Shown: piece by piece, positions 16,045-43,790 of the stretch
Layout of the letters: every line of letters begins with the position of its first letter
Position numbering within the stretch: position 1 is the first letter of the stretch
Assembly (NCBI GenBank): GCA_029884335.1
Contig: JAOUIA010000024.1
Span: 1-51,036 of the forward strand
DNA length: 51,036 nt
Direction: 5' to 3'
Origin: Betaproteobacteria bacterium
Lineage (GTDB): Bacteria; Pseudomonadota; Gammaproteobacteria; Burkholderiales; Casimicrobiaceae
The notes under the pieces: generated by a model
The model's input: the letters and a program-made list of their open reading frames with translations, nothing else
Told to the model about the DNA's origin: nothing
The model's database searches: none
Program-made: the position numbers and the translations under genes

Positions 16045-16839
16045 CTACTTCGCGACGACCGCTTCGCCCTTGACTTCGACTTCGACGCGGCGGTTCGGCT
16101 GCAGGCAGGCGATCAGCTCCTTCAGGTTCTTCTGCGTGCAGCTGACGCCCGGGACCGGCTGGGTCTTGCCCATGCCCAGCGTCTCGATCTTGTCCTTCGG
16201 CACGCCCTTGCTGACCAGGTAGTCGCGCACGGCATCGGCGCGGCGCTCGGACAGCTTCTGGTTGTACTGCTGCGTGCCGAGGCGGTCGGTGTGGCCGGTG
16301 ACCAGCACGAGCTCGAGCTTCTGCACCTGCGGCAGCTTGGCGATGATCTCGGCGTCGATCGCGGCGCGGCCTTCCGGACGCAGCACGGCCTTGTCGAAAT
16401 CGAACAGCGCCTTCGAGGCCAGCGTGATCTTCTGCACGGCAGGAGCGGCGGGCTTCGGCGCGGGCGCCGGAGCGGGCGCCGGAGCGGGCGCGGGGGCCGG
16501 CTTCGCGGCGGGAGCAGGCGCAGGAGCAGGCGCGGGGGCCGGAGCGGGCTTCGGCACGAGGTCCGGATCGCACTGCGCGATGGCCATGGCCGGCGACCAG
16601 TAGCCGGTGCGGTAGCAGAGGTTGCCGGCCAGGCCGCGCGCGCCGTTGAACTGGGCGCTCTTCACGACGTTGTTGTCCGGCGTGCCGGTGGCGGACAGCC
16701 AGTAGGCGCAGTTCTTCGTGTCGCATCCGGCCACGCCGGCGACATACCCGGATGTGGCGGGCGCTTGGGCAGCGACGCTTCCGGCGACAGCGGCGGCGAA
16801 CGCGCCCACGAGAGCACCGGACAGAAGACGTCGAGTCAT
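16045..16839 (-). CDS. OmpA-family outer membrane protein with Ala/Pro-repeat linker
   Basis: A 264-residue envelope protein with a signal peptide (MTRRLLSGALVGAFAAAVAG...), then a small N-terminal region with paired cysteines (GCDTKNC and the Cys of NLCYRTG). A long Ala-Pro linker (about residues 97-131) leads to a C-terminal OmpA peptidoglycan-binding domain (FDFDKAVLRPEGR, VTGHTDRLGTQQYNQKLSERRADAV). The N-terminal part is too short for an eight-strand barrel, so it probably ties a small surface or periplasmic module to peptidoglycan. The ATG at 16839 has a GGGGTGAAAC leader as ribosome-binding site; an upstream ATG at 16872 would spoil the signal peptide. It is transcribed away from gyrA and ends in a clear terminator. 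Confidence 0.9.
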   Translation of the reverse strand: MTRRLLSGALVGAFAAAVAGSVAAQAPATSGYVAGVAGCDTKNCAYWLSATGTPDNNVVKSAQFNGARGLAGNLCYRTGYWSPAMAIAQCDPDLVPKPAPAPAPAPAPAPAAKPAPAPAPAPAPAPAPKPAAPAVQKITLASKALFDFDKAVLRPEGRAAIDAEIIAKLPQVQKLELVLVTGHTDRLGTQQYNQKLSERRADAVRDYLVSKGVPKDKIETLGMGKTQPVPGVSCTQKNLKELIACLQPNRRVEVEVKGEAVVAK

Positions 16840-16949
16840 TGTTTCACCCCTTTGGCTTTGGTTTTCGATCAAGGTTCCTGCAACCGAACTTCACGGGCGC
16901 GCCGCGCAGATAAATGCCTGACGCGCCGAATCCTTTCGTCCCGTTTTTG

Positions 16950-16958
16950 AATATAGCA
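16950..16958 (-). promoter_or_regulatory. Extended -10 promoter for the OmpA-like gene
   Basis: The minus strand reads TGCTATATT, an extended -10 element, in the 378-base divergent gap between the OmpA-like gene and gyrA. Transcription would begin near 16943, giving a leader of about 104 bases. No good -35 box at standard spacing was seen, which is tolerable for an extended -10 promoter. Confidence 0.5.
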
Positions 16959-17037
16959 CAGGGTTCCCACCCCAACCCACGGCGCGCCGGCGCCGGACGA
17001 GCGTTCGCGGCGCGACTGTCGCGGCAATACAACGCCG

Positions 17038-17046
17038 TGCTAAAAT
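17038..17046 (+). promoter_or_regulatory. Extended -10 promoter of the gyrA leader transcript
   Basis: TGCTAAAAT is an extended -10 element. The expected start is near 17053, about 165 bases before the gyrA ATG. It is the only promoter-like motif seen on the plus strand of this gap, and everything between the terminator at 17162 and the ATG is GC-rich without a -10 box. Confidence 0.55.
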
Positions 17047-17052
17047 GTTGCA

Positions 17053-17163
17053 TTTTCAAGGCTCTCCGGCGCTTTCCGGGGAGCTGCCCGGTTGCCGGGG
17101 GCTCGCCCAAAGCGCACGAACGCGGGCGTCCCGGCGATTTGCGCGCCGGGACGCCCATTTTTC
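17053..17163 (+). ncRNA. Putative structured leader RNA or small RNA ending in a terminator before gyrA
   Basis: From the predicted start to the terminator the transcript would be about 110 nucleotides. It folds by eye into three hairpins: 17061-17084 (9-bp stem GCTCTCCGG/CCGGGGAGC, one wobble), 17087-17099 (CCCGG-TTG-CCGGG) and the terminator stem 17124-17156. A promoter, compact stem-loops and a strong terminator ending 55 bases before gyrA describe either an attenuator that regulates gyrA or an independent small RNA. I cannot assign it to a known RNA family from memory. No credible leader peptide was found in it. Confidence 0.5.
17124..17162 (+). terminator. Strong intrinsic terminator inside the gyrA leader
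   Basis: A perfect 13-bp stem, GGGCGTCCCGGCG (17124-17136) with CGCCGGGACGCCC (17144-17156), encloses a 7-base loop and is followed by ATTTTT. It lies between the only visible promoter and the gyrA start codon, so gyrA transcription from that promoter must pass it. Confidence 0.85.
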
Positions 17164-17217
17164 CGACCGACCCGGCGCCGGCCCGCGCCGCGCCCACCCA
17201 AGGACCGGACCATCCCC

Positions 17218-19776
<2,559 letters not shown>

Positions 19777-43756: not shown

Positions 43757-43790
43757 GCGCCCTGCCCGTCCCGCGGGCCGGGCGCTTTTC
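43757..43790 (+). terminator. Intrinsic terminator after the DUF2092 / Asn-repeat gene pair
   Basis: GCGCCCTGCCCG pairs with CGCGGGCCGGGCGC across a short loop (one or two bulged bases) and is followed by TTTTC, 26 bases after the stop. It separates this pair from the enolase-superfamily gene. Confidence 0.7.

Follow-up and report, generated by a model that had tools for sequence, protein, structure and literature searches.

The window, by which we mean the whole 51,036-nucleotide stretch of betaproteobacterial DNA that was analysed (Casimicrobiaceae; contig JAOUIA010000024.1), carries the gyrA gene, encoding subunit A of DNA gyrase, with its ATG start codon at 17218-17220 and a chorismate mutase/prephenate dehydratase gene as the next gene after it. 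An OmpA-like gene lies on the other side of the gyrA leader and is transcribed away from it. Elsewhere in the same genome topA was located, and gyrB starts at a contig edge. The features with which we are concerned are the following:

16045-16839, minus strand: OmpA-like gene, divergent from gyrA (OmpA models score 143 bits, below their curated cut-offs)
16950-16958, minus strand: likely extended -10 of the OmpA-like gene, TGCTATATT (assigned by eye)
17017-17034, plus strand: conserved block TGTCGCGGCAATACAACG, 5' of the gyrA -10 (gap-free alignment of 23 gyrA promoters from two genera)
17038-17046, plus strand: extended -10 of gyrA, TGCTAAAAT (TGnTAAAAT in 23 of 23 leaders)
17056-17067, plus strand: conserved stretch TCAAGGCTCTCC, consensus TCAANGNCCTCC, just 3' of the presumed transcription start (23-leader alignment)
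17060-17085, plus strand: hairpin 1, 10 pairs (-17.9 kcal/mol alone; sequence not conserved)
17081-17104, plus strand: hairpin 2 (-14.6 kcal/mol alone; its 3' arm may pair with the 5' arm of the terminator)
17106-17129, plus strand: 24 bases identical in the window's genome (G000) and the sister species G003, extending into the terminator stem (leader alignment)
17124-17162, plus strand: intrinsic terminator with a 13-bp stem, a 7-nt loop, an A and T5 (sequence, terminator scan, compact score, fold)
17218-19776, plus strand: gyrA, DNA gyrase subunit A (TIGR01063, 1197 bits against a cut-off of 877)

The first-pass annotation of this DNA placed a promoter-like motif, two compact stem-loops and a strong terminator in front of gyrA, and both the motif and the terminator were borne out. 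The terminator stem is a perfect match of GGGCGTCCCGGCG to CGCCGGGACGCCC (17124-17156), followed by an A and by TTTTT at 17158-17162; a further 55 bases separate this T-run from the ATG of gyrA. Folded alone, this hairpin reaches -30.4 kcal/mol, and its compact-hairpin score was matched by none of 500 shuffled leaders. A more permissive score, under which long hairpins with imperfect stems also count, was matched by 10.5% of 200 shuffles; we considered it too loose for leaders this rich in GC and went on to the compact score, and both are given below. A terminator scan of 16800-17300 returned a single terminator-like site, compared to 0.7 (sd 0.9) in shuffles. In a survey of 376,971 bases, made up of the window and 20 stretches and covering roughly one tenth of the genome, a compact score of at least 30 was reached by 26 hairpins; the gyrA-leader terminator ranks highest and is the only one of them that could be placed between divergent genes (37 divergent pairs were counted), two hairpins at stretch ends having been left unplaced (L174 near 19970 and L179 near 14130). 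Gene calling in this survey was crude, and visual inspection changed two labels: the gyrA terminator had been assigned to the inside of gyrA, since the longest open frame begins upstream of it, and the hairpin at 43757 had been labelled a leader terminator although it directly follows the end of a frame. We also considered a dispersed repeat element and rejected it, since the hairpin pattern (up to three mismatches) has just one further match in the genome, and an imperfect one.

The OmpA-like gene runs the opposite way, so the RNA that reaches the terminator most likely comes from the gyrA promoter, and because the two genes are divergent there is no upstream gene on the same strand for the terminator to serve. 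No promoter-like site was seen after the terminator, either by inspection of the sequence or in the sigma-70 scan, in agreement with the first-pass annotation, and the gyrA mRNA must thus be a product of read-through. The sequence thus presents a promoter motif, an intrinsic terminator between it and the gene it controls, a divergent neighbour and no upstream gene to be served, the arrangement that an attenuator would have. On this basis the gyrA 5' leader probably holds a transcription attenuator with obligatory read-through, a reading that we hold with moderate confidence. RNA polymerase would start at the conserved extended -10 promoter, at around 17053; a fraction would stop at the terminator (17124-17162) and release leader RNAs about 110 nt long, and the remainder would pass it and make gyrA mRNA. 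The extent of read-through could be constant, or it could be regulated through alternative pairing, through a protein or through the speed of the polymerase. The start site is inferred, and so are termination in the cell, its efficiency and any regulation of read-through. Attenuation suggests that the supply of gyrase is partly set by the frequency with which polymerase passes the terminator.

The sigma-70 scan of 16800-17300, which requires two hexamers, found no promoter on either strand, and the gyrA promoter is therefore called from its extended -10 and from conservation, with no -35 match; the start at about 17053 is the position expected from the spacing. The promoter alignment comprises 23 leaders (20 from the same genus and three from a second genus) and is free of gaps around the -10, with TGTCGC, CAACG, TGnTAAAAT and TCAA.G...T invariant or nearly so. 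In the block at 17017-17034 the (near-)invariant elements are TGTCG.. and CAACG, and in the start stretch the TCAA, the next G and the T are invariant in all 23 leaders. Outside the range from about -27 to about +26, counted from the first base of TAAAAT, conservation fades. The upstream block together with the -10 has a single match in the window's genome when up to three mismatches are allowed. The pattern formed by the -10 and the start stretch has one match each in 18 of 64 family genomes, all from two genera; the window's own copy is one base off this pattern and was missed by that search. Across the 23 leaders, the promoter and the stretch after the start are conserved far better than the hairpins. 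The conservation of the gyrA promoter (17017-17067 in the window) reaches far past a usual -10, and we know of no binding protein or role for the TGTCGC...CAACG block or the TCAANGNCCTCC stretch. Leaders of genus g3, among them L148 and L149 (both with TGTCGCAGTTACGCAAC), have a block resembling this one well over 100 nt 5' of the -10 instead of adjoining it, and this position well upstream suggests an independent binding site. Letters similar to the likely extended -10 of the OmpA-like gene were also seen by eye in leaders of the window's genus.

Each of the two stem-loops between promoter and terminator folds alone, but bases 17081-17085 belong to both, so that hairpins 1 and 2 compete and cannot both form fully. 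In the minimum-energy fold of the leader the terminator is retained, and another, longer helix precedes it; this fold has a z-score of -3.94, and none of 200 shuffles was as stable. The first-pass annotation also suggested that CCGG-rich arms of hairpin 2 could pair with the terminator stem as an antiterminator. Until the 3' arm of the terminator has been transcribed, all 13 bases of its 5' arm can indeed find partners in the leader, some of them in the 3' arm of hairpin 2. However, the same number of paired bases is reached by 3.8% of shuffles and the same gain in energy by 13.8%; the corresponding values for the sister G003 are 22.8% and 36.4%, and in four further leaders the pairing was no better than in their own shuffles. 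The antiterminator pairing is thus not clearly beyond chance. We identified neither a ligand nor a protein site for the gyrA leader, and a search by eye yielded no leader peptide. Two candidate start codons were set aside: the ATG at 17045 precedes the presumed transcription start, and the TTG at 17092, which has no visible ribosome site, opens an in-frame extension of gyrA. The comparison with Rfam leader motifs that the first-pass annotation proposed matched no family: there were no matches in the window at the gathering score, and the 15 matches obtained in 16850-17260 at E values up to 10 all fall below it.

A 201-base leader query matched five of the 22 genomes of the genus, one of them its own, and apart from its own genome the match covers the whole length only in G003; beyond this sister the leader sequences are no longer alignable and similarity is lost. 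The gyrA of G003 is 98% identical to that of the window over the 199 residues compared, and its leader has a bulged terminator followed by T6 at the equivalent position, which the compact score missed. Although 14 of the 33 hairpin bases differ between the two genomes, the aligned hairpin of G003 still reaches -19.5 kcal/mol and its T-run is kept; 0.9% or 2.1% of simulated changes, depending on which of two nulls is used, reach this energy.

Among the 22 same-genus genomes, gyrA was recovered in 20, and all 20 leaders were read. In ten of them a T-run comes directly after a hairpin, in every case 45-72 nt before the ATG, and some of these hairpins are weak; no such terminator hairpin was detected in the other ten. 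Hairpins of -14 kcal/mol or below occur in eight leaders, compared to 3.6 in shuffles, and their clustering in one 28-nt window was matched by none of 100 shuffle sets. The position test was devised after the leaders had been seen, with the window width of 28 nt and the energy steps being our own choice, and for this reason all 28-nt windows were scanned. At the weakest cut-off the count is ordinary (10 leaders with a hairpin against 8.6 expected) and only the clustering stands out. By the permissive score there is no clear excess in the genus (seven leaders against 6.2 expected at a score of 25, and six against 4.0 at 30); by the compact score, three of the 20 leaders pass 28, compared to 0.4 expected. 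In a gyrA tree built from 21 rows, from which L105 and L121 were left out and in which L104 is represented by only 369 bases, the presence of a terminator requires four changes, compared to 7.2 with shuffled labels. The label thus follows kinship, and the same-genus leaders are not independent. The conservation and covariation that were to be sought in relatives present a divided picture: the presence and position of the terminator recur, but its sequence does not, and no covariation was shown. L090 and L092, in which no terminator was detected, have two competing short hairpins and no T-run; in L090 these are GAAACTTT/AAAGTTTC and AAAGT/ACTTT.

The first-pass annotation left the choice between attenuation and an independent RNA of about 110 nucleotides to further work, and of the two it is attenuation that is better supported, by the divergent OmpA-like gene, by the lack of a visible promoter-like site after the terminator and by the recurrence of a terminator-like hairpin in 10 of 20 same-genus leaders. 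If the region encoded a small RNA acting on other messages, with gyrA expressed by read-through, the conserved 5' end TCAANGNCCTCC would be its seed. The spacing of promoter and terminator does resemble that of a small RNA gene, no other transcribed part of the 23 leaders is as well conserved as the 5' end, and most relatives have an anti-Shine-Dalgarno-like CCTCC there. Yet the full-length body is conserved in the sister only, no Rfam family covers it, and the 5' stretch shows the same degree of conservation where no terminator was detected, which points to a function in the promoter or the mRNA; we regard a small RNA as unlikely. The terminator might instead damp gyrA transcription weakly and to a fixed degree, or be a neutral hairpin such as GC-rich leaders form; in either case it would be unregulated and freely gained and lost. 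Its absence from half of the same-genus leaders and the frequency of strong hairpins in GC-rich shuffles are what one would expect of such an element, whereas the clustering of the genus hairpins at one place and the retention of the terminator hairpin in the sister, better than simulated change predicts, are not, and this explanation too appears unlikely.

It is very improbable, finally, that gyrA is transcribed from a promoter of a different type situated 3' of the terminator and 5' of the ATG, which would make the upstream unit irrelevant to gyrA expression. Our scans cover sites of the sigma-70 type only, which leaves room for such a promoter; but 17163-17217 is very rich in GC and has no TATAAT-like hexamer, the upstream promoter is the one conserved in 23 leaders, and each of the 36 other family leaders could be assigned a -10-like motif ahead of gyrA (L151, in which the gyrA start was not found, had been dropped).

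Control of the gyrase supply is usually discussed in terms of supercoiling-sensitive initiation. In Escherichia coli the gyrA promoter is reported to be sensitive to supercoiling (PMC6170449), and the leader described here is similar in that control would sit in the gyrA promoter region and different in that control in E. coli acts at initiation. The gyrA leader of Pseudomonas aeruginosa, for which premature 3' ends were measured and alternative folds predicted (PMC8297930), resembles the early termination predicted here between the promoter and gyrA. It belongs to a gammaproteobacterium and its ends were measured, whereas those of the present leader are predicted, and the two are likened by description and not by sequence. 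The gyrA RNA motif of Pseudomonas is Rfam family RF01740 (listed in PMC2864571) and has in common with the leader studied here an RNA structure in front of gyrA. The window gave no match to RF01740, and none of 21 genomes has one over the cut-off; the control is uninformative, as 14 control genomes were silent too, and the one weak hit (25.9 bits, in G006) is on a contig other than the gyrA contig of that genome. We recognised no report on betaproteobacterial gyrA leaders in a largely open-access literature represented mostly by titles and abstracts. The gyrA leader described here would thus be a case of attenuation of an already known type, and attenuation is the likely reading. A terminator that gyrA transcription is obliged to pass, and whose distance is kept while its letters change, would add a control step after initiation, which would fit the premature leader ends measured in P. 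aeruginosa (PMC8297930).

A broader possibility is a feedback attenuator shared across the family, in which the promoter block, the start stretch and the position-held terminator form one control unit responsive to chromosome or gyrase state, with the terminator repeatedly rebuilt while its place is kept; we consider this improbable. At the stricter cut-off, gyrA was found in 55 of the 64 genomes of the family set. By the compact score, six of the 36 other family leaders pass 24, compared to 1.7 expected, and one passes 28, compared to 0.4. Among 77 leaders from bacteria of other groups, from which L041, L076 and L079 had been dropped because no -10 was found in them, there is no excess at a compact score of 24 (none, with 1.0 expected), and seven pass 20, with 4.6 expected. 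In genus g7, seven leaders have a hairpin and T-run directly after the promoter. A MAFFT alignment of these seven leaders contains no pair with both sides changed, and 74.2% of its cells are paired, lower than the 79.0% obtained when the alignment is slid by +1, so that the pair counts give covariation no support; aligning one g7 leader to that of the window was uninformative. Compact terminator-like hairpins begin 13-34 nt past the start of the -10 in L153, L156 and L159 of genus g3 and in L165 of genus g7, and these g3 and g7 hairpins are much closer to the promoter than those of the window's genus.
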